Assembly: GCA_016218085.1 (NCBI GenBank)
Contig: JACREY010000011.1
Location: 1-64,000, forward strand
From: Ignavibacteriota bacterium
GTDB lineage: Bacteria; Bacteroidota; Ignavibacteria; Tepidaquicellales; Tepidaquicellaceae
Length of the DNA: 64,000 bases
Reading direction: 5' to 3'
Position numbers and translations under genes: made by a program. The notes beneath the pieces were generated by a model. The model did no database searches. It had not been told where the DNA came from and was given only the letters and a program-made list of their open reading frames with translations. This document shows, piece after piece, positions 3,675 through 60,455 of the stretch (positions are counted from its first letter, which is position 1; each line of letters starts with the position of its first letter).

Positions 3675-6200
3675 ATGAAAAAAATAATTTTTACAATCAT
3701 GCTTATTATCCTTTTGGTTTCCGTGTCTTACTCTCAATACGGATACCGCTGGATTCAAAAACAAAGCGGAACTGCAAGCAGCTTTTATGGCTCTTATTTT
3801 TCAAATAATTCTTCTAATAATTATGCGGGATTTATCTGCGGAGCTAACGGCACAGTCTTCTTCTCAAATGACGGATATAATACCTGGCTCTCAAAATCTG
3901 TCGGAATAAACGTAAATCTGTATTCAATTGCTTCTGCCTCACCAAATTACAACTCAATTGTCTGCTGTGGTGACGACGGAACCGTTTTATATTCATCTAA
4001 TGCAGGAACAAACTGGATTCAGCTGAACTCAGGTACAACCGCAAAGTTAAACTGCATAGTTCGTTCAGGTACAAAACTATTTGCCACAGGAAACAACGGA
4101 ACCATTATTTCTTCAAGCTGGTCAGGGACTGCTTACTCCCCCTTCACTCAGATTTCATCCGGAACCACACAAAATCTCAAAAGTATTTATATTAACTCAG
4201 AATTTTTTGCTTGCGGTGACAATGGTACAGTTTTAAAGTCAACAAATCTTGGTGTGAACTGGTCTGCTGTTCCCTCTCCTGCTTCTGTTAGCCTTAATTC
4301 TGTATATGGATATTCAACCGAAATAAATGTCTGCGGTAACAACGGGCTGTATTATAAAACTACTAACAACGGGCTCATTTGGACAAGCTACCCGACTGGG
4401 GTTACAAACAATTTGAATTGCCTCAATTTATATTATTATATTTTTGGAAACTCGGGCACAATCTTGTATAATAAATATACGGGGTCGGGGCAAATAGAAT
4501 GGGAAAAAATGATTTCACCCGTAACCGAAAATTTATATTATGGATTGCAGACCTCGAATAATATATTTTTTACCTTCGGCTCAAATGGAACTATATTGAA
4601 AAGAGAAATGGACTCTTCTTTAATAGCCCGGAAAATAAGCGGAAATAATATCAGCACATATATGATTTATAGAGGAATATTTGACCAGAATATTTTTTCA
4701 ACAAATACACCCGGTTTCGAGTGGCCTGCCGGCTCAAATAAACACGCCGTTTTTACAACCGGTTTATCTGCTGGCTGCCGCATAAACGGTCAGCTTGCCC
4801 AGACAATGTGCTCTTATATGGGCGAGTATCAGCCCGGATGTATTATAAACGGTCAACTGAATGATAGTGATATTTTCAAAATTTATAAAGTCAGCAAAAC
4901 TGAAAACCCGCCGGGGCAGGACTGGATGAACTGGGGATGTATGGTTCCTTTCGGCGCTCCTTATGTCGATGTCAATCACAACGGAATCTATGAACCCCTT
5001 ATTGATACTCCGGGAGTCAAAAATGCAGCACAGACTCTCTTCGTCTGCCTGACCGATATAAACCCGTCTACTCATAGTGCCGGAGAAGGATTCGGCGGCG
5101 GCATTACGTCCCCCTTAATGGGAATTGAATTGCACCTTACCAAATGGACATACAATTATCCGAGTTTCAATGATGTTGTTTTTACTAAATTCGATATATT
5201 AAATAAATGCGGCTCCGCCTGGAATAATACTCACTTTGCAATCGTTTCAGACCCCGATATTGGCGATGCAAGCGACGACTGGGTTGGGTGCGATACAATC
5301 AGAAATATGGGTTATTGCTATAACTATGATAATGATGACCCGCAATATGGTACAGCTCCCCCTGCGGTTGGCTTTGATATTTTAAAAGGACCACTGAATA
5401 AAAGTGTAGTTCCTAATGTCAGGTATAATATGTCATCATTTATCAGGTTTGTTTCACCAAATGCAACACCTCCCAATGAAGGCGACCCTAACGGAGAACC
5501 TTATCCTGCTTATTTAATGCTGAAAGGATTAAAAAAAGATTCCTCCGCCTGGGTGGATAAAACACAACCAACACCCTGGGGAAGCTATAAAAGAACAAAA
5601 AAGATTTTTTACGGAGACCCGGAAACTAACGAAGGCTGGACTTCGCAAAAAGGATATATTTCCACCTGGACACCAAACGATTCAACTGGAATTGAACTCC
5701 CTGAAACACCAGGTGATAAAAGAATCGTAATAGGTATCGGTGCGGATAATTATTCCGTCTATCACGGCGATACTGCCACCATCTGGCTCGCCCAGCTTGT
5801 TGCGCGCGGATCAAATAATCTGAACTCGGTTACAAAACTAAAACAACTGTCCGATATTACACAGATGTTTTTTGAAAGCAATTTTACCATCGGAATAAAT
5901 CAGATTTCATCCGAAATTCCCGATAAATATTCACTTGAACAAAATTATCCGAACCCGTTTAACCCCGCAACAAAAATTAAATACTCTGTTGCAAAGTTTT
6001 CTGACGTAAAACTCGTTGTATATGATATCCTCGGAAGAAAAATCAGGGAGCTCGTAAATGAAAAACAGGCACCGGGAGTATATGAAGTTCTTTTCGATGC
6101 ATCATCGGATAAACTGAAATCTCTTGCCAGCGGTGTCTATTTTTACAGATTAAATACCGGTAACTTCTCCGATACAAAACGAATGCTCCTGATTAAATAG
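3675..6200 (+). CDS. Large secreted YCF48-like propeller protein with T9SS tail
   Basis: 841 aa. Signal peptide at residues 1-20 (ends VSVSYSQ). Residues about 25-310 hold repeated CGDNGTV / SSNAGTNW blades, a YCF48-like propeller. The central 300-740 region is a different globular part with calcium-loop-like stretches (DVNHNGIYEP, DPDIGDASDD) and no family I recognise. The last 86 residues start with QNYPNPFNP and end SGVYFYRL...KRMLLIK, a T9SS type A sorting domain. Probably an extracellular or cell-surface protein. The short space before the next gene (71 bp) allows co-transcription with it. Confidence 0.85.
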   Translation: MKKIIFTIMLIILLVSVSYSQYGYRWIQKQSGTASSFYGSYFSNNSSNNYAGFICGANGTVFFSNDGYNTWLSKSVGINVNLYSIASASPNYNSIVCCGDDGTVLYSSNAGTNWIQLNSGTTAKLNCIVRSGTKLFATGNNGTIISSSWSGTAYSPFTQISSGTTQNLKSIYINSEFFACGDNGTVLKSTNLGVNWSAVPSPASVSLNSVYGYSTEINVCGNNGLYYKTTNNGLIWTSYPTGVTNNLNCLNLYYYIFGNSGTILYNKYTGSGQIEWEKMISPVTENLYYGLQTSNNIFFTFGSNGTILKREMDSSLIARKISGNNISTYMIYRGIFDQNIFSTNTPGFEWPAGSNKHAVFTTGLSAGCRINGQLAQTMCSYMGEYQPGCIINGQLNDSDIFKIYKVSKTENPPGQDWMNWGCMVPFGAPYVDVNHNGIYEPLIDTPGVKNAAQTLFVCLTDINPSTHSAGEGFGGGITSPLMGIELHLTKWTYNYPSFNDVVFTKFDILNKCGSAWNNTHFAIVSDPDIGDASDDWVGCDTIRNMGYCYNYDNDDPQYGTAPPAVGFDILKGPLNKSVVPNVRYNMSSFIRFVSPNATPPNEGDPNGEPYPAYLMLKGLKKDSSAWVDKTQPTPWGSYKRTKKIFYGDPETNEGWTSQKGYISTWTPNDSTGIELPETPGDKRIVIGIGADNYSVYHGDTATIWLAQLVARGSNNLNSVTKLKQLSDITQMFFESNFTIGINQISSEIPDKYSLEQNYPNPFNPATKIKYSVAKFSDVKLVVYDILGRKIRELVNEKQAPGVYEVLFDASSDKLKSLASGVYFYRLNTGNFSDTKRMLLIK

Positions 6201-13390: not shown

Positions 13391-13435
13391 AAAAAATTTG
13401 TTACATCTTACAGGGCTTAATTAAAATTCGATATA

Positions 13436-16828: not shown

Positions 16829-16869
16829 GCTCTTTACTTTACAAACTTTATAAACCTTATAAACTTTTA
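16829..16869. repeat. 9-bp tandem array plus AGAGC word at the tag stop codon
   Basis: AAACTTTAT, AAACCTTAT, AAACTTTTA follow each other at 16843-16869, after GCTCTTTACTTTACAAAC (reverse complement GTTTGTAAAGTAAAGAGC). The tag stop codon (16857-16859) lies inside the array, and the last residues VKSL are encoded by it. Near-identical GTTTGTAAAGTTAAGAGC occurs at 29811-29828. Confidence 0.7.
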
Positions 16870-18163: not shown

Positions 18164-18212
18164 AGATTCATAAGATTCGTAAGATTCGTAAGATTCATAA
18201 GATTCGTAAGAT
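18164..18212. repeat. Five 9-bp tandem repeats upstream of the rhomboid gene
   Basis: AGATTCRTA repeated five times without gaps (18164-18208) plus a partial sixth, starting 5 bp before the rhomboid start codon. It must therefore be in the 5' leader or promoter of the rhomboid-tag operon. A second repeat module, TTCAGCCTATCGCT (18245-18258), and a CGCTCTTT (AGAGC complement) follow further upstream. Confidence 0.8.
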
Positions 18213-18288
18213 TTAATGTTTCAATTCATTTTTGAAATTATCCGTTCAGCCTATCGCTATTTACTTTTTACGCTCTTTCATTCAGAAT

Positions 18289-45210: not shown

Positions 45211-45567
45211 ATGAACCTCGAATTTTTCCGCGAATATGCACTTAAGAAAAAAGCGGCTTCGGAAAGCCAGCCCTTCGGAGAAGATGTGATTGTATATAAG
45301 GTTGCCGGGAAGATTTTTATGATGATGAATTTCGAAACCCCGTTTCAGATTAGTTTAAAATGTGACCCCGAACTTGCTATCGAACTTCGGGAAAAATATT
45401 CCGCTATCAGACCGGCGTATCATATGAATAATAAACACTGGAATATGATTGATGCGGACGGCTCCGTGCCTGTAAACGAAATTCTGAATATGATTGACCA
45501 TTCGTATGAATTGGTGGTGAGGAAGTTGACAAAAAAAGAAAAAGAAATTTATAAGAACAGTAGATAG
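45211..45567 (+). CDS. MmcQ/YjbR-family protein
   Basis: 118 aa. The YjbR fold is seen in FREYALKKKAASESQPFGEDVIVYKVAGKIF, LKCDPELAIELREKY and PAYHMNNKHWNMI (short pieces). The family is a small alpha/beta domain that resembles the CyaY fold; some members bind DNA, but the biological role is not settled. The last residues NSR and the stop TAG are encoded by the start of a heptamer array. Divergent from the sensor kinase. Confidence 0.92.
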   Translation: MNLEFFREYALKKKAASESQPFGEDVIVYKVAGKIFMMMNFETPFQISLKCDPELAIELREKYSAIRPAYHMNNKHWNMIDADGSVPVNEILNMIDHSYELVVRKLTKKEKEIYKNSR

Positions 45568-45652
45568 TAGTCAGTAGTTAGTAGACAGTAGAAGAGCATA
45601 TCGCAAAAAAAGCTTGTATGCTGACTACTAACTACAATCTACTAACTACTTC
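45561..45652. repeat. Heptamer array and its inverted copy at the yjbR stop codon
   Basis: TAGATAG, TAGTCAG, TAGTTAG, TAGACAG (45561-45588) then TAGAAGAGCA, followed about 20 bp later by CTGACTACTAACTACAATC and TACTAACTACTT (45621-45652), the inverted copy. The two can pair into a long imperfect hairpin, which may end the yjbR transcript. The stop TAG (45565-45567) lies in the first unit. Confidence 0.8.
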
Positions 45653-47029: not shown

Positions 47030-49291
47030 ATGAACGAAAAACACATTGAAAAAATTTCAAAAGAACTGAACCTAAAAGAAAACCAGATTTTTGCCACGGC
47101 AAAGCTGCTGAGCGAAGACGCCACGGTGCCGTTTATAGCAAGGTACAGAAAAGAACTGACGGGAAGCCTCGATGAAGTGATTATCACTGCAATACGCGAC
47201 CGCCTTGCACAACTCGATGAACTCGACAAACGCCGCGAAGCAATTCTTAAATCACTCGAAGAGCGCGAACTGCTGACCGATGAACTTAAAGAAAAAATTG
47301 ATGCGGCTGAAACTCTTACCGAACTCGAAGATATTTACCTTCCCTTCCGCCCGAAGAAACGTACACGCGCCACGATTGCAAAAGAAAAAGGACTCGAGCC
47401 GCTTGCCGTGATGATATTCGAACAGGAGAATATTGACGTAATCGCCGAAGCGGAAAAATTCATAGACGAAGAAAAAGGCGTGAAGTCTGCAGAGGATGCA
47501 CTCGCAGGCGCACGCGATATTATGGCAGAGTGGGTTAACGAAAATAAACTCGCCAGGGAAAAAACGCGAGACCTCTTTGAGCGAAAAGCATTCGTTTTCT
47601 CAAAGGTTGCAAAAGACAAGGAAGAAGAAGGAATAAAGTATAAGGATTACTACGACTGGAAAGAACTTGCAAAAGACGCTCCCTCGCACAGACTGCTTGC
47701 AATGTACCGCGGAGAGAATGAAGGTTTCTTAAGACTTAACATATGTCCCGACGAAGAAGAAGCAATTGAAATACTTGATAAAATGTTTGTAAAAAATTTC
47801 GCATCTGTAGAAAGCGTTCAGAAAAATTCTGCGCAGGAACAGGTTTTAATTGCAGTAAAAGACTGCTACAAGCGACTGCTCTCGCTTTCGATTGAAACAG
47901 AATTCAGAGGACTTCTGAAAGAGAAAGCCGACCGCGCCGCAATAATAGTATTTGCTGATAATCTCAGACAGCTTCTGCTCGCTCCTCCGCTCGGCGAAAA
48001 AAATATTCTTGCTCTCGACCCGGGATTCAGAACGGGGTGCAAGGTTGTATGCCTCGACCGCCACGGAAAACTTCTGCACAACGAAACAATTTATCCTCAC
48101 ACAGGAGCCGCTCTTAAACTACAGGCGGCGGAAAGAATAATCGACCTCGTGGAAAAATTTCATACGGAAATAGTTGCAGTCGGAAACGGCACAGCAGGCA
48201 GAGAGACAGAAGAATTTGTACGCTCGGTTTTTGAAAAGACAGGAAAGAAAGATATTCCGGTTGTGATGGTGAACGAAAGCGGCGCTTCAATTTATTCCGC
48301 ATCGGAAGTTGCACGAGAAGAATTTCCCGATTACGATGTAACCGTGAGAGGCTCTGTCTCAATCGGCAGAAGACTTATAGACCCGCTTGCAGAGCTTGTG
48401 AAGATTGACCCGAAATCAATCGGAGTGGGGCAATACCAGCACGACGTGAACCAGACAATGCTTAAGCAGAAACTCGACGATGTGGTAATGTCCTGCGTAA
48501 ACGGAGTCGGCGTGGAAGTAAACACTGCCAGCAAACAGCTCCTGACCTACGTTTCCGGGCTGGGTCCGAAACTTGCACAGAGCATAGTGGAATTCAGAAA
48601 TGAAAACGGCGCATTTAAATCACGCGAAGAATTGAAAAAAGTACCTCGTCTGAAAAATAAAGCATTCGAGCAAGCCGCAGGATTTTTAAGAATCCGCAAC
48701 GGTGAAAATCCGCTCGATGCATCGGCTGTTCACCCCGAAACTTATCACATCGTTGAAAAAATGGCAACGGATATCGGGTGCACCGTGAAAGAATTAATTA
48801 CATTCCCGCAGAATCAGGCTAAGATAGACGTGAACAAGTACATCAGCGATACGGTTGGACTTCCGACACTCGAAGACATACGTGCTGAGCTTGCAAAACC
48901 CGGACGCGACCCGAGAGAGAAATTCGAGATATTCGAATTTGCAAAAGATGTCGGAAAAATCGAAGACCTGAAACCCGGAATGAAACTCCCCGGAATAGTT
49001 ACCAACATTACAAACTTCGGTGCGTTCGTGGATATCGGGGTTCATCAGGACGGGCTTGTGCACATAAGCGAAATAGCAGACGGCTATATAAAAAATCCTG
49101 CAGACGTTTTGAAAGTTTCGCAGAAAGTTACCGTGAAAGTTCTGGAAGTTGACCTTGCAAGAAAACGCATACAGCTCTCGCTCCGCACGGGAAGCGGCGA
49201 AAAGAAAGTGGAGAAGAAACCCAAGACATCTTCAAAAGAAGAAGCGGATAAGAAACTGAAAATGCTGATGGAGAAATTTAAAAAGCAGTAG
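47030..49291 (+). CDS. tex: Tex-family transcription accessory / RNA-binding protein
   Basis: 753 aa, full length. N-terminal helical Tex domain (VPFIARYRKELTGSLDE), YqgF/RuvC-like fold (ILALDPGFRTGCKVVCLD), helix-hairpin-helix region (AQSIVEFRNENGAFKSREEL...VPRLKNKAFEQAAGFLRI, in pieces) and a C-terminal S1 RNA-binding domain (GIVTNITNFGAFVDIGVHQDGL, in pieces). Tex binds nucleic acids and affects transcription and virulence gene expression in several bacteria; the exact job is unsettled. The stop TAG lies in the first unit of a heptamer array (49289-49323). Confidence 0.95.
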   Translation: MNEKHIEKISKELNLKENQIFATAKLLSEDATVPFIARYRKELTGSLDEVIITAIRDRLAQLDELDKRREAILKSLEERELLTDELKEKIDAAETLTELEDIYLPFRPKKRTRATIAKEKGLEPLAVMIFEQENIDVIAEAEKFIDEEKGVKSAEDALAGARDIMAEWVNENKLAREKTRDLFERKAFVFSKVAKDKEEEGIKYKDYYDWKELAKDAPSHRLLAMYRGENEGFLRLNICPDEEEAIEILDKMFVKNFASVESVQKNSAQEQVLIAVKDCYKRLLSLSIETEFRGLLKEKADRAAIIVFADNLRQLLLAPPLGEKNILALDPGFRTGCKVVCLDRHGKLLHNETIYPHTGAALKLQAAERIIDLVEKFHTEIVAVGNGTAGRETEEFVRSVFEKTGKKDIPVVMVNESGASIYSASEVAREEFPDYDVTVRGSVSIGRRLIDPLAELVKIDPKSIGVGQYQHDVNQTMLKQKLDDVVMSCVNGVGVEVNTASKQLLTYVSGLGPKLAQSIVEFRNENGAFKSREELKKVPRLKNKAFEQAAGFLRIRNGENPLDASAVHPETYHIVEKMATDIGCTVKELITFPQNQAKIDVNKYISDTVGLPTLEDIRAELAKPGRDPREKFEIFEFAKDVGKIEDLKPGMKLPGIVTNITNFGAFVDIGVHQDGLVHISEIADGYIKNPADVLKVSQKVTVKVLEVDLARKRIQLSLRTGSGEKKVEKKPKTSSKEEADKKLKMLMEKFKKQ

Positions 49292-49323
49292 TTAGTAGAT
49301 AGTAGTTAGTATTTAGTAGAAGA
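49289..49323. repeat. Heptamer array overlapping the tex stop codon
   Basis: Five units: TAGTTAG, TAGATAG, TAGTTAG, TATTTAG, TAGAAGA, ending in AGAGCA. The tex stop is the first three bases. Same consensus as the yjbR array, where TAGAAGAGCA also closes the row. Confidence 0.8.
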
Positions 49324-55229: not shown

Positions 55230-57773
55230 TTAAAATCCAACTTTCATATTAAAGAAAATATTTCTTTCGGCTGCGGGAATCCAGTTGGGAGTGCCCGTCC
55301 AGTCAACTCCGCCTGTTGTTTCGTATAGCCTGTCAAAAATATTGTTCACCTTCAGAGAGGCTTCGAGTGTACGGAAATATTTGCTTAAATTTTTTGAGCC
55401 AATAAGCGGAACAATATCCAGCGATACACCTGCATTGAAAACAGTATAGGGATTTATAATTTTATCCACATAGCCGGCAACCTGCGTGGCGGCAGGATTT
55501 TTTCTTTCGTTTTCGGAGTTATCGAGGTACTGCTTTCCGATATATTGCATAGTAAAGTATGCGCCGAGTCCGAAATCCGAATTGAAGTTAAGAGAAAGAT
55601 TTCCGATGATTTGCGGATTCAATAAAATTTTATTTCCCGAATAATCATTTCCGTAAATAATTTTTCCTGCTGAGTCCACTCCGTTGATTTCTGTGTATTC
55701 CCTGAAATAATTATCCGTGAGCGCAAGGTTTCCGTTTAAAGTAAGTATGGGATTTTTATACCTGATGCCGCTGTAAATCTGGGCAATTAAATCATATTCA
55801 AACTCAAATTCTATTCCGCGGTGAACGGACTTGCCCGCATTGCCGTTGATGGGCTGTCCTACATTATCGAGCTGTCCGTTGTTTACGATTTCATTTGTAA
55901 AGTTCATCCAGTAGAAATTCAGATTTGCCTTGAGCAGGTTTGTGCTGTATCCGAAGCCGAGCTCGAAGTTTGTCATTTCTTCCGGCTTGATAAGCGGGTC
56001 GGAATAAGTGCCGCTTAGCGTATCCACAACCCTGAAGTTCGGGCGCGAGTAAGGGCTTTCGGCATCATAAATATCTTTCAGACGCGGTTCGCGGCGCGCC
56101 ATAGATACATTTGCAAACACGCGGAAGTCATTATTGATATTATAATTCAGTCCGAGGCGGGGAGTGAAGAAATTATAATCAACGTCGAACTTATACGGCT
56201 TGTTCGCATCGTTATCTATAGAATACCTGTGGAATGCAAACTGCAGACCGAGCATTGCCGTGAAGTTTTTATTGAAACTGTATATTTCGTTTACATAAAG
56301 AGACGCGGTTTTTTTCTTTCCCTCATAGTAGTAATACCTGTAATTAGCCAGAGTATTGGGAGGAAGCACGCTTCCGAAAGAAACCTCACCGTAATGCTCG
56401 GAGCTGTGAATGCGAAGTTCGCCGCCGATAAGAAGATTTCCTTTATCACCTGAGTGCTTCCATTGCACCTTCGGATACCATCCGTAGTCGTTGTTGTTAA
56501 CGAAAAGATTCACAACCATGTCGCTCCTTCCGACTTCATATCCCTTCCCTGGTACAAAAACAATCGTGCCGTCGGGATTCCGGTTGAAATACGCGGGATT
56601 AAACGAAGCGGAATCGTGAGTATAAAAATTCGGCAGGCGGAAATAAGAAAAATCCGCTCCATAAGAAATCGGATAATTTGTAATAAAATATCCTTCACCG
56701 CGCATATAGCTGAGCGTATTCGATATAAAAAGATTTTTTGTCGCCTGAAGATTATAGACCAGCTCGTAATGCGGCTGGTTGTAATTGTCGGTTTCGTTTG
56801 GGTATTCGAGAGGATTGTAACGCCTGTCTTTGCGCGCATCGCCCGAGATTTTTCCGTCGAGATAATCTTTTGAAACTCCGTAATATGCAAGATGATTTTT
56901 TATCGGCGAGCCGTAGAAATTCATTTTAATTACGGAATTTGCTCCGAGCATTTTTCCTGCGCTTAAAAAATAGGACCAGTGGTCCGACCATGATAAATTC
57001 CTGTAGCCGTCCGATTTTGTCTTTGAAAATTTTCCGTAGAAACCAAAACCGTTATCGAGCAATCCGGACGAGTATTCCATTGAATATCTTCTTGAATTAT
57101 AATCCCCTGTTCCTGCATTCAGGTTTATGAATTTATTTTTAAAATAATCCAGAGTCTGTATATTAATCACTCCGCCTATGCTGGATGTGCCGTAAAGCGC
57201 CGTGCCTATTCCGCGCTGAAGCTGTATGCTCTCTACCGAAGAACCGATATCCGATAAATCCACCCAATACACCTGATGGTCTTCGGCATCGTTTTGCGGA
57301 GTTCCGTTTATAAGGATTGCTATTCTTTTCTGGTCGAATCCGCGTATCGAAAAATAAGAGTACCCGATTGATGCTCCCGATTCCGAATATGCGTTAATGT
57401 TCGTGCTGCCGTTTATGAACATCGGCAAATCCTGCATCCAGTAACGCCTTTCTATTGTTTCCCTTTTTATGTTTTCGAATGTAATAGGCGTAAGCCTTTC
57501 CACTCCCCTGAGGGCATCCACCTCTATGGTGTTCGTTTCGTATTTGATAGTGTCTTTATCCTGAGAATTTGCATATCCGGTAAATAGTAAAATGCCCGCC
57601 ACGGCGGGTGCAAAGAGCGCATAAATAGTAAATAGTAAAACGTGAATCGTGAATCGTGAATCGTGAACAGAAAAGCGCGAACTTTTTTTTCCTTCTGACT
57701 CCTGACTTCTGACTCCTGACTTCTTTCCTGTTTTCTTTGCTTTAAGAAAAGCAGTTTTAATTAATGTTCCCAT
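55230..57773 (-). CDS. TonB-dependent outer-membrane receptor under TPP riboswitch control (thiamin-related uptake)
   Basis: 847 aa from the ATG at 57771-57773. The ATG at 57830 lies in the riboswitch terminator and is rejected. The plug domain spans about residues 100-210 (WMQDLPMFINGSTNINAYSESG, in pieces; RGFDQKRIAILINGTPQND; GGVINIQT) and the beta-barrel runs to the terminal ERNIFFNMKVGF with its final Phe. Residues about 17-64 are encoded by repeat units (57582-57724) and include the apparent signal-peptide core VLLFTIYALFAPAVAGILLF. Bacteroides OMthi, behind a TPP riboswitch, is the precedent for thiamin import; here the cargo is inferred. Tandem paralogue at 58005-60455. Confidence 0.93.
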   Translation of the reverse strand: MGTLIKTAFLKAKKTGKKSGVRSQESEGKKSSRFSVHDSRFTIHVLLFTIYALFAPAVAGILLFTGYANSQDKDTIKYETNTIEVDALRGVERLTPITFENIKRETIERRYWMQDLPMFINGSTNINAYSESGASIGYSYFSIRGFDQKRIAILINGTPQNDAEDHQVYWVDLSDIGSSVESIQLQRGIGTALYGTSSIGGVINIQTLDYFKNKFINLNAGTGDYNSRRYSMEYSSGLLDNGFGFYGKFSKTKSDGYRNLSWSDHWSYFLSAGKMLGANSVIKMNFYGSPIKNHLAYYGVSKDYLDGKISGDARKDRRYNPLEYPNETDNYNQPHYELVYNLQATKNLFISNTLSYMRGEGYFITNYPISYGADFSYFRLPNFYTHDSASFNPAYFNRNPDGTIVFVPGKGYEVGRSDMVVNLFVNNNDYGWYPKVQWKHSGDKGNLLIGGELRIHSSEHYGEVSFGSVLPPNTLANYRYYYYEGKKKTASLYVNEIYSFNKNFTAMLGLQFAFHRYSIDNDANKPYKFDVDYNFFTPRLGLNYNINNDFRVFANVSMARREPRLKDIYDAESPYSRPNFRVVDTLSGTYSDPLIKPEEMTNFELGFGYSTNLLKANLNFYWMNFTNEIVNNGQLDNVGQPINGNAGKSVHRGIEFEFEYDLIAQIYSGIRYKNPILTLNGNLALTDNYFREYTEINGVDSAGKIIYGNDYSGNKILLNPQIIGNLSLNFNSDFGLGAYFTMQYIGKQYLDNSENERKNPAATQVAGYVDKIINPYTVFNAGVSLDIVPLIGSKNLSKYFRTLEASLKVNNIFDRLYETTGGVDWTGTPNWIPAAERNIFFNMKVGF
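57582..57724. repeat. Composite short-repeat island inside the receptor's N-terminal codons
   Basis: In plus-strand order: AAATAGT (57582-57588); CCCGCC-AC-GGCGGG hairpin (57595-57608); AGAGC (57614-57618); AAATAGT twice (57623-57636); GTGAATC three times plus GTGAACA (57642-57669); GACTCCT and GACTTCT alternating, four units (57697-57724). The same modules occur in intergenic islands of the window. All are in frame, so the reading frame survives. Confidence 0.88.
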
Positions 57774-57779
57774 GATTAA

Positions 57780-57847
57780 AATTAATAAAAATAAAAAACG
57801 CCTAAACTTTTCCCGAACCTGATAAAACAAGGAAAAATTTAAGCGTT
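57780..57847 (-). terminator. Riboswitch-controlled terminator hairpin
   Basis: On the minus-strand RNA, AACGCTTAAATTTTTCC (57847-57831) pairs with GGAAAAGTTTAGGCGTT (57813-57797) with 15 of 17 pairs matched, followed by a T-rich run (TTTTTTATTTTTATT). The loop holds ATCAGGTTC (57815-57823), the exact complement of the aptamer core GAACCTGAT. Confidence 0.85.
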
Positions 57848-57857
57848 GAAAATAATT

Positions 57858-57945
57858 TGTAGTTTCCTACGGCGGCATTACCCGCATCAGGTTCTATGGG
57901 TCTTGTCTCAGCCTTTCCCGGAACGGGGAAAAGCACCCCAATACA
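57858..57945 (-). ncRNA. TPP (THI-box) riboswitch
   Basis: Minus-strand RNA carries, in order, GGGGTGC (57934-57940), a GC hairpin, GGCTGAGA (57906-57913), ACCC, GAACCTGAT (57886-57894), GCGGGTAATGCCGCCGTAGG + AAAC (about 57863-57885). These are the conserved segments of the THI box. The expression platform is the terminator about 11 nt downstream; the anti-terminator can form between GAACCTGAT and the terminator loop. In the bound state the terminator should form and switch the receptor off. Confidence 0.95.
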
Positions 57946-57968
57946 GCTATTATGCAAAAAGAACTAAA

Positions 57969-57999
57969 CAAAATTATTCACAATCGAATCAATTTGCAA
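57969..57999 (-). promoter_or_regulatory. Candidate Bacteroidota-type promoter of the riboswitch RNA
   Basis: TAATTTTG (complement at 57969-57976) matches the -7 consensus TAnnTTTG; a TTG lies 20 bp upstream (57997-57999). The transcript would start just before the aptamer, so the second receptor has its own promoter, independent of the upstream receptor gene. Confidence 0.5.
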
Positions 58000-58004
58000 G
58001 TGAT

Positions 58005-60455
58005 TTAAAATCCTACTCTCATATTAAAAAACAAATTCCTATCTGCAGCCGGAATCCATAACGGAACACCGTTTGCGCTCATCCCGCCAGTGCTTTCATA
58101 CAGCACGTCAAAAATGTTGTTAATCCTGAAAGAAACCTCGAGCGTCCTGAAAAACCTTCCGAGCCTGTCCGATTTGAAGAGCGGAATCAAATCCAGCGAA
58201 ATCCCTGCATTGAAGACCGTATGAGCATTAATAATCTTGTCAACATAACCGGGTGCGTTTCTTCGCTCCGGGTTTTTCCTCTCGTTTTCCGAATTGTCCA
58301 GGTATTGCTTCCCTATGTACTGCATTGCAATATATCCGCTTAATCCGATTTCCGAGTTGTAATTAAAAAGGAGATTCCCGATTATCTGCGGATTCAGCAG
58401 AATTTGGTTTCCTGAATAGTCGTTTCCGTAAATGTTTCCAAGCGAATCGATATAATTTTTTTCAAGATATGTGATAAAATAATTATCTGTCAGACTCAGG
58501 TTTCCGCTTAAAGTTATTTCGGGATTGCGTCCCGCCTTTCCGTTCTGAAATTTTCCTCCCATGTTGTATTCAAATTCAATCTCTATTCCCTGATGAACGG
58601 ATTTCCCCGCATTCCAGGTCATCGGCTGCCCGAAAATATCCAGCTGACCGTTGCTTACAATTTCATTCGTGTAATCCATCCTGTAGAAATTCAGGTTGGC
58701 CCTCAGCAGGCTTCCGCCGTATCCGAAACCAAGCTCATAATCATTCATCTCCTCATAAGTTACAAGCGGGTCCCTGTAAATTCTGTTTACTGTATCTATA
58801 GTTTTGAAATTTGGTTTCGCAGTCAGGCTTGTTCCGTCGTATAAATCGCTCAGCCTCGGCTCCCGCCTTGCAATGGATGCGTTCACAAAAGCCCGGAAGT
58901 ATTCATTGAAATTATAATTAAATCCAACCCTCGATGTCAGAAACTTGTAATCAACATCGAAATTGTAAGGTGTGTATGCCGAATTGTCAACTGAATACTT
59001 GTGATATGTGAACTGTATCCCGAACATGCCTGAAAGCTTTTTTGCCATGTTCGTGAATTCATTCAGATAAATCGAATAAGTGTTTTTATTTCCTTTGTAA
59101 AAATAATATTTGTAATCATCCGGCGTACCGGGCGGAAGCGCATTTGCAAAATCAATCTCCCCGCAGTTTTCCGAACGGTGCAGACGGAACTCGCCGCCAA
59201 TCAGCAGATTCCCGATATCCCCTGTGTGTCTTATGTGTACCTTCGGAAACCAGCCATAGTCGTTGCTTTTCGTGTTCAGTTTTGCAACCAGATCTGTGCG
59301 AGCAACCGTGTAACCTAATCCAAGTATTGTGTCTATTCTTCCCCTCTGATTGCGCAGGTAATAATTTATATTATAAGTGAAAGTGTCCCTTGCGTAAAAA
59401 TACGGAAGTCTGAAATGATGTAAATCATATCCCGCACTTATCGGATAGTTTGTCGTGAAAAATCCATCCCGTCTGATGTAATTAAATGTATTAGAAATGA
59501 AAACTGTTTTCGCCGCCTGAAGGTTGTAAACAAGTTCATAATGCGGCTGGAAAAAATCCGAAACTTCATTTATGTATTCAATCGGGTTGTACCGCCTGTC
59601 TGTGCGGATATCTCCGGTCACCTGTCCGTCGAGATATCTTTTTGTTATGCCCTTATATGCTGTGTGATTCTTCACGGGGGATCCGTAAATGTTCAGCTTT
59701 ATAACGGAACTTTCCCCCAGAATTTTTCCCGCACTAAGAAAATACGACCAGTGATCTGACCACGAAAGGTTTCTGTACCCGTCCGTCTTTGTCTTCGAAA
59801 ATTTTCCGTAAAATCCGAATCCGCCCTGCGTGAGACCAGACGAGTATTCTGCGGAAAACCTTTTCGAATTATATGCGCCGTAACCCGCATTAAGATTTAT
59901 GAATTTATTTTTGAAATAATCTATCGTTTGCAGGTTTACAACACCGCCGATTCCGGACGTGCCAAAAAGCGCCGTGCTTATCCCCCTCTGAATCTGTATG
60001 TTCTCTATGGATGAGGTAATGTCCGAAAGCTCTACCCAGTTCACCTGGTGGTCCATCGGGTCGTTCTGCGGCGTGCCGTTAAGCAGGATTGAAAGCCGCC
60101 TCTGGTCAAAACCGCGTATAGTAAAATATGAATAACCGACCGAAGCACCTGATTCTGAATAAGCGTAAATGTTAGTGCTCCCGCTCAGGAACATCGGTAA
60201 ATCCTGCATCCAGTAACGCTTTTCAATTGCTTCCTTCTTTACCGTCTCAAGAACAATCGGTACAACTTTTTCTATCCCCTTGATAGCATCCACCTCAATT
60301 GTAGGAGTCCTGTATGTGTTTGTATCTTCTGCTTCCTGTGCATCCGCTCTTATTGAAAACCCAAAGTTAAAAAGAAAAAAAACTGAAATCAGCAGTAAAA
60401 CTTTAAACTTCAAACCGCCGGCGGCCGGCCGCACCGCCTTTCTGTATGTTTTCAT
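58005..60455 (-). CDS. TonB-dependent outer-membrane receptor, paralogue of the thiamin-linked receptor
   Basis: 816 aa. Signal peptide core LLLISVFFLFNFGFSI with a GC-rich, repeat-like stretch before it (RPAAGG, coded by CGGCCGGCCGCCGGCGG). Plug domain with SGSTNIYAYSESGASVGYSYF and RGFDQRRLSILLNGTPQND, then a barrel ending AADRNLFFNMRVGF. Very similar along the full length to the 55230-57773 receptor, so the two arose by tandem duplication. It has no riboswitch in front; the aptamer lies after its stop codon and serves only the downstream copy. Its ligand may differ or its expression be constitutive. Confidence 0.93.
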   Translation of the reverse strand: MKTYRKAVRPAAGGLKFKVLLLISVFFLFNFGFSIRADAQEAEDTNTYRTPTIEVDAIKGIEKVVPIVLETVKKEAIEKRYWMQDLPMFLSGSTNIYAYSESGASVGYSYFTIRGFDQRRLSILLNGTPQNDPMDHQVNWVELSDITSSIENIQIQRGISTALFGTSGIGGVVNLQTIDYFKNKFINLNAGYGAYNSKRFSAEYSSGLTQGGFGFYGKFSKTKTDGYRNLSWSDHWSYFLSAGKILGESSVIKLNIYGSPVKNHTAYKGITKRYLDGQVTGDIRTDRRYNPIEYINEVSDFFQPHYELVYNLQAAKTVFISNTFNYIRRDGFFTTNYPISAGYDLHHFRLPYFYARDTFTYNINYYLRNQRGRIDTILGLGYTVARTDLVAKLNTKSNDYGWFPKVHIRHTGDIGNLLIGGEFRLHRSENCGEIDFANALPPGTPDDYKYYFYKGNKNTYSIYLNEFTNMAKKLSGMFGIQFTYHKYSVDNSAYTPYNFDVDYKFLTSRVGFNYNFNEYFRAFVNASIARREPRLSDLYDGTSLTAKPNFKTIDTVNRIYRDPLVTYEEMNDYELGFGYGGSLLRANLNFYRMDYTNEIVSNGQLDIFGQPMTWNAGKSVHQGIEIEFEYNMGGKFQNGKAGRNPEITLSGNLSLTDNYFITYLEKNYIDSLGNIYGNDYSGNQILLNPQIIGNLLFNYNSEIGLSGYIAMQYIGKQYLDNSENERKNPERRNAPGYVDKIINAHTVFNAGISLDLIPLFKSDRLGRFFRTLEVSFRINNIFDVLYESTGGMSANGVPLWIPAADRNLFFNMRVGF

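Follow-up and report, generated by a model that had tools for sequence, protein, structure and literature searches.

A predicted signal peptide built largely from dispersed short repeats in a riboswitch-controlled TonB-dependent receptor of an Ignavibacteriota bacterium

Can dispersed repeat DNA come to encode the export signal of a conserved bacterial protein? The question is raised by a TonB-dependent receptor gene lying behind a thiamin pyrophosphate (TPP) riboswitch in a 64,000-nucleotide stretch of DNA (hereafter the window; positions 1 to 64,000 of contig JACREY010000011.1, assembly GCA_016218085.1) from an Ignavibacteriota bacterium. We find that residues 18-64 of this receptor are encoded by a block of short repeats (57582-57722), consisting of heptad arrays and one CCCGCC/GGCGGG palindrome, and we propose that a Sec leader rebuilt from these repeats is the best explanation of the locus, with a probability of roughly 0.78. 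A preliminary description of the window had placed the repeats at residues 17-64, approximately; Tandem Repeats Finder (TRF), sequence shuffling and matches within the own genome bear this out as 18-64. The gene and its leader comprise the following features.

55230-57773, minus strand: TonB-dependent receptor gene, ATG at 57773 (translation; Pfam TonB barrel 3.3e-35, Plug 9.1e-14)
57723-57773, minus strand: original n-region, residues 1-17, MGTLIKTAFLKAKKTGK, not repeat-coded; aligns with MRKKNFNNFVKAGEAGKN of the same-genus orthologue
57692-57724, minus strand: heptad array GACTCCT/GACTTCT x4, coding for KSGVRSQESE (TRF score 66; match at C18:1120-1159; in register with GAATTCA x4 of the orthologue in genome G001)
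57641-57667, minus strand: heptad array GTGAATC (coding strand GATTCAC), coding for HDSRFTIH (TRF score 54)
57622-57639, minus strand: heptad array AAATAGT (coding strand ACTATTT), coding for LLFTIY (TRF score 36; intergenic matches)
57596-57620, minus strand: palindromic dispersed element GCGCTCTTTGCACCCGCCGTGGCGG, coding for ALFAPAVAG (26 genome sites; missing from the G001 orthologue)
57580-57593, minus strand: second AAATAGT unit beside the palindrome, coding for ILLF (read from the sequence)
57582-57641, minus strand: predicted hydrophobic core VLLFTIYALFAPAVAGILLF, residues 45-64 (Kyte-Doolittle hydropathy)
57558-57581, minus strand: c-region and predicted cleavage site TGYANS/QD (slash, predicted cut; DNA GCAAATTCTCAGGA, identical in G001)

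The minus-strand frame from the ATG at 57773 reads MGTLIKTAFLKAKKTGKKSGVRSQESEGKKSSRFSVHDSRFTIHVLLFTIYALFAPAVAGILLFTGYANSQD, with the N-terminal layout MGTLIKTAFLKAKKTGK-KSGVRSQESEGKKSSRFSVHDSRFTIHVLLFTIYALFAPAVAGILLF-TGYANSQD. The lag-7 score of the leader, 27, was reached by none of 500 dinucleotide shuffles, and controls from the mature region all scored 6 or less. The first array is composed of two GACTCCT and two GACTTCT units. Of the unit counts given earlier, those for GACTCCT/GACTTCT (x4), AAATAGT (x3) and the palindrome hold; the four claimed copies of GTGAATC are three exact copies and one degenerate copy.

These repeats are dispersed through the genome. A 401-bp query around the block gave 26 matches in the own genome, itself included, and, the tandem paralogue of the receptor aside, the matches fall on the repeat block; the repeat is intergenic in nearly all of the 19 matching regions inspected. 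With up to three mismatches, the palindrome motif GCGYTCTTTGCAYCCGCCGTGGCGG occurs at 26 genome sites (reversed control, 0) and GATTCAC x3 at 44 (control, 0), the sole exact instance of the latter being the one in the receptor gene. The core-coding composite of heptad, palindrome and heptad recurs as a unit at C2:77294-77344, where it is intergenic and 94% identical over 51 bp. Three islands in the window (12.5-13.4, 49.3-49.8 and 53.1 kb) had also been said to hold the modules of the leader: the AGAGC word and related hairpins do occur in them, but the three leader heptads are absent, and the islands were rejected as the source of these. Islands matching the heptads lie elsewhere on the contig or in the genome (e.g., C2:77294, 165036, 193564). 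The window also contains intergenic heptad islands of the AGTAGTT/AGTAGAT type near gene ends, at 45557-45592, 45624-45650 and 49287-49319, some of them adjoining CCCGCC hairpins.

As a protein segment, the leader has the properties expected of an export signal. Residues 1-44 form a basic n-region of net charge +8. The best 14-residue Kyte-Doolittle mean is 2.26 (orthologues, about 1.8-2.8) and falls to 0.21 once the repeat block is removed; since no hydrophobic core then remains, any export of the receptor would depend on the repeats here. At ANS/Q, a site conserved with G001, small residues occupy the -3 and -1 positions, as in the cleavage-site rule. Signal peptidase I of Ignavibacterium album usually cuts before Gln (Q-value 77%; PMC5837995), which, together with the identity of the c-region in G001, makes ANS/QDKD the likeliest predicted cut. 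The leader is thus predicted to be a Sec signal peptide of about 70 residues, in which the extra n-region and the entire core are repeat-encoded; export through the repeat core, and its dependence on the block, are likewise predicted. The earlier proposal that a repeat island encodes both the n-region extension and the whole export core is backed by the start position, the orthologues, the dispersal of the repeats, the shuffles and the in silico removal of the block.

The closest comparison comes from G001, an independently assembled genome of the same genus, which has the same tandem receptor pair, the second copy lying behind a TPP riboswitch at a contig end. Its leader, MRKKNFNNFVKAGEAGKNSEFRIQNSELKESFIFHIFRFTILLFIFHYSLFINSANSQ, aligns in register with that of the window, GAATTCA x4 standing opposite GAAGTCA/GGAGTCA x4, and the palindrome is missing. 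The n-region array and the core array of G001 are both dispersed in the G001 genome. An orthologue with the same sequence but no repeat structure had been named beforehand as grounds for abandoning the proposal; G001 proves to be repeat-structured there as well. The simplest reading would be that the array is old, that homogenisation took a different course in each species, and that the palindrome was added later in the window's lineage. The leader of G001_par, the counterpart of the tandem paralogue, is also heptad-coded. A protein-level search with the leader across the family genomes returned notable open matches only in its own gene and in the G001 orthologue, so the leader peptide is not a shared domain. 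As a separate observation, the orthologous four-unit arrays (window 57695-57722; L014 near 4160-4190) differ from each other by identical base changes in every unit, as would follow from separate homogenisation in the two species.

Repeat-coded leaders recur across the receptor family. Counting a leader array as significant when its lag-7 score was at least 14 and was reached by 0 of 500 shuffles, we found such arrays in G000, G001 (both copies), G002 and G026, with mature-region controls at 6 or below; when the TPP copies of G000 and G001 are counted once, heptad arrays have arisen in these leaders at least four times. Most orthologue leaders in the family are ordinary, with n-regions of 2-11 residues, and several have n-regions of 31-47. 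Leader inserts are dispersed in the own genome in G026, G027, G024, G014, G001, G002 and G016, and weakly in G020; the non-heptad ones are palindromes or hairpins (G027, G024, G014, G016) and AT-rich repeats (G020). Five ordinary leaders taken as controls (G008, G019, G010, G003, G012) had zero own-genome repeats, and a sixth (G011) had one weak match. Near-identical mature receptors carry unrelated leaders in G002/G017/G024 and in G026/G027 (tree end branches 0.02-0.05). The preliminary description had envisaged the landing of a single repeat. That part does not stand, as related receptors took up different repeats at one spot several times; the notion of a repeat-coded export core does.

The family comparison also bears on the strongest rival explanation, according to which the repeats are harmless passengers that merely lengthen the leader, any T-rich DNA would serve, and 'exaptation' is too strong a word. 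In G027, G020 and G024 the inserts do sit upstream of an ordinary core, and it is not very improbable that an open hydrophobic core would outlast neutral change. The core itself, however, lies inside arrays in the receptor leader, its G001 orthologue, G001_par and G002 (in the last, a dispersed TTTTTGA array sits within the core), and in the receptor no core exists without the block. We regard the passenger explanation as unlikely.

Repeats in other coding DNA place the leader in a wider context. Lag-7 arrays were counted in 864 kb of the genome (26%), taken in stretches, with crude gene and signal peptide calling. The counts were 40 intergenic versus 8 genic arrays, or 0.304 versus 0.011 per kb, the intergenic rate being inflated because the first 400 kb were partly picked around known repeats; the second 400 kb, picked blind, held 12 arrays between genes and 2 genic ones, both in sorting tails. 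Of the 8 genic arrays, 2 are those of the receptor leader, 5 lie in type IX sorting-tail loops and 1 elsewhere. The sorting-tail arrays share one loop, between the strands TxIxYxI and VxLKVYDILGKEV, and the genome has at least 150 type IX C-terminal sorting domains. Leader and tail DNA, about 3.7% of coding DNA, thus holds 6 of 7 independent gene loci (binomial P 1.6e-8; about 4e-7, calculated by hand, without the receptor leader), with the qualification that sorting tails are paralogous, so that the five tail arrays are partly dependent on one another. The sole coding lag-7 array seen in G014, across 400 kb, likewise lies in a sorting tail.

Several individual loci were recorded alongside these counts. 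In-frame heptad arrays in the type IX sorting-domain loop occur at L086:11931-11960 and 13395-13422, L103:13606-13638, L116:4448-4475, L123:11668-11695 and L065:1120-1159. A predicted gene at L089:18682-19668 has a mid-gene heptad array coding for ENGKRKMENGKE, outside any export signal. The FAPAVAG palindrome element, read as FSAFFAPAVAGFA, lies in the linker between the halves of a transporter at L095:8979-10208 (the same gene as L062:1380-2612) that, by eye, resembles ChrA. In G014, the apparent signal peptide MNKTYGIGIPAFAGMTSLILFIVLIFPFEAKSQ of L160:2636-3511 carries a very common palindrome, ATTCCCGC..GCGGGAATGAC, in its n-region. Within the window, 9-bp tandem arrays, the second commonest class of intergenic array in this genome, are found at 18164-18213 (AGATTCGTA x5.6) and 16836-16867 (ACTTTATAA x3.6).

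The location of these arrays is relevant to a second rival explanation, in which the block is a contingency locus: array slippage would change the copy number, and the resulting frameshift would switch the receptor on or off (phase variation). Tandem repeats whose unit length is no multiple of three, close to the beginning of a gene for an outer-membrane receptor, are the classic layout for such a switch, and work cited in PMC4692102 reports an enrichment of short repeats at prokaryotic N-termini. The arrays are nonetheless short (at most four units) and partly degenerate, the first array has the same copy number in G001, the reading frame is intact in both genomes, and most repeat copies are intergenic or in sorting-tail loops, places in which a switch would be of little use. 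We judge phase variation improbable, somewhat more so than a passenger role.

The remaining alternatives concern the upstream region and the start codon, where three further features lie.

57846-57950, minus strand: TPP riboswitch aptamer (Rfam RF00059, 70.6 bits, E 1e-12)
57798-57847, minus strand: terminator hairpin AACGCTTAAATTTTTCC...GGGAAAAGTTTAGGCGTTTTTT, expression platform of the riboswitch (read by eye; kept in orthologues)
58005-60455, minus strand: tandem paralogue with signal peptide MKTYRKAVRPAAGGLKFKVLLLISVFFLFNFGFSIRADAQ (64% identity to the riboswitch-controlled receptor)

Both the plug (PF07715) and the barrel (PF00593) domains are matched in the riboswitch-controlled receptor, and the TPP riboswitch, the sole pointer to the substrate, suggests that it may transport thiamin or a precursor. 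The paralogue has, as previously described, a short ordinary signal peptide lacking the insert (n-region 18 residues, core mean hydropathy 2.47). In both the receptor pair (55230-60455) and its counterpart in L014 the TPP riboswitch is found only at the downstream copy; in the tree, the upstream copy clusters with the second copies of G020, G026 and G027.

With the block directly 3' of the riboswitch, the repeats might act as DNA or RNA elements, through mRNA structure or regulator binding, their translation being incidental; heptads 5' of start codons in Beggiatoaceae have been proposed as regulatory sites (PMC4679880). Repeat families are, however, wholly different among orthologues that share the riboswitch, and many riboswitch-bearing orthologues have no repeats, which leaves this explanation very improbable.

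The ATG at 57773 is positioned 19 nt past the T-run of the riboswitch terminator, a distance of 9-22 nt in nearly all riboswitch-bearing orthologues. A start downstream of the repeat block was rejected: in-frame ATG and TTG are absent, and a GTG at the AVAG codon gives no basic n-region or usable core. The true start downstream with an ordinary signal peptide that might have overturned the preliminary description is therefore not found, no downstream in-frame start giving a signal peptide. An upstream TTG at 57830 was also rejected, as it falls inside the terminator hairpin. The start and the cleavage site look genuine, given the ATG-terminator spacing and the conserved flank in which ANS/Q lies. 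A wrong start, a pseudogene or an assembly error, leaving the block untranslated, is the least probable alternative: the assembly has 22 contigs and tandem repeats are a known error source, but the receptor frame runs free of stops across all repeats for 847 codons, the ATG spacing is orthologue-like, G001 has the same layout and there is no usable downstream start.

Why should heptads suit a leader? Since 7 is coprime to 3, every frame of a heptad array gives the same cycle of seven residues, which makes an array in open orientation a ready hydrophobic segment in any frame. Of the arrays between genes, 40 in all, 29 have an open strand (one strand only in 26, both strands in 3), and 22 of the 29 encode a cycle with a mean hydropathy of at least 1.0 (examples of hydrophobic cycles are LLFTIYY, FYFLLFT and ICYLLFV). 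The T-rich strand of the leader heptads is stop-free and codes for hydrophobic peptides. In the mechanism we propose, dispersed repeat DNA would have replaced or overgrown the ancestral n- and h-regions while the first codons of the receptor and the ANS/Q region were retained, and the translated repeats would supply the basic n-region (residues 1-44) and the core (45-64), with signal peptidase I cutting before Gln71. Repeats would be tolerated in export signals because a signal peptide requires only charge and hydrophobicity, not sequence. They may insert widely, persist in export signals and sorting-tail loops, and be purged from the remaining protein regions, the leaders of the receptor family being renewed from repeats repeatedly.

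A number of observations weigh against a repeat-rebuilt leader. An n-region of 44 residues is unusually long, and the signal peptide was called from its hydropathy, its charge and its position in orthologues. The leader inserts of G009, G013, G017 and G022 are not dispersed in their own genomes. Per gene such arrays are rare, with 1 of about 173 crudely predicted signal peptides in the sample, that of the receptor, containing one. In simulations with 30-40% of its bases randomly changed, the core was still open and hydrophobic in 4-8% of trials, and its kept hydrophobicity is weak evidence of selection. Lastly, the repeat had been described as mobile or expanding; it is mobile in the sense of being dispersed, and no mobilising enzyme (transposase), target-site duplication or empty site was found for the heptad arrays, an empty counterpart being known only for the palindrome, in G001.

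The conversion of a repeat into a signal peptide has precedents in Yersinia YPO1552 and in Rickettsia palindromic elements (RPEs). In YPO1552, RU-2/YPAL (Delihas 2007; PMC2759123, PMC2229807) is a 168-bp miniature inverted-repeat transposable element (MITE) at one locus, in a small uncharacterised protein; here, in contrast, the lengthened n-region and the whole core are supplied by short heptad arrays and a 25-bp palindrome, the protein is a conserved outer-membrane receptor, and its orthologues carry independent repeats. RPEs (Ogata et al. 2000, as reviewed in PMC2229807) are, as here, dispersed repeats tolerated in frame within conserved genes. They are palindromes of 105-146 bp and of one kind, found in many enzymes with no focus on export signals, and their effect is reported to be neutral or slightly harmful, whereas here unrelated repeats converge on one functional spot. 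Compared with MITEs and RPEs, the CCGCC/GGCGG palindrome sits in a dispersed 25-bp core with heptads on both sides, and no ends or duplication can be defined. Heptanucleotide repeats have been described in several phyla. Those known, GGGAATC in Xanthomonas and Nostoc (PMC4692102) and TAACTGA in Beggiatoaceae and some Bacteroidetes (PMC4679880), share the 7-bp unit, the few copies and the mostly intergenic location, but differ in their units, and both papers are concerned with roles as DNA or RNA and not with repeats that encode export signals. The transmembrane-first (TM-first) idea in yeast (2020, PMC7005711) likewise holds that hydrophobic membrane segments are present ready-made in the coding potential of T-rich noncoding DNA; there whole new genes arise, whereas here the leader of a bacterial gene is replaced. 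In the literature searched we found no account of an export core made entirely of heptads, of repeats captured independently and more than once by the leaders of orthologues, or of a concentration of repeats common to Sec leaders and type IX tails, and none from Ignavibacteria.

The locus addresses two open questions, the origin of coding from noncoding DNA and the fast divergence of signal peptides, in a setting where the source DNA is identifiable, sister genomes provide before and after states, and the function, export, is easily assayed. The three-frame property of heptads and their hydrophobic T-rich strand offer a concrete explanation, open to test, for the ability of repeats to turn into export signals. 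At the level of the clade, we put forward as a tentative generalization, to which we give slightly less than an even chance, that the export signals at the two ends of secreted proteins, N-terminal Sec leaders and C-terminal type IX tails, act as general sinks for dispersed repeats, that T-rich hydrophobic heptads form a standing supply for rebuilding signal peptides, and that leaders may be renewed through the capture of repeats instead of point mutations. For the receptor itself, the finding suggests a route from junk-like repeats to working protein parts in the leader of a vitamin-uptake receptor.
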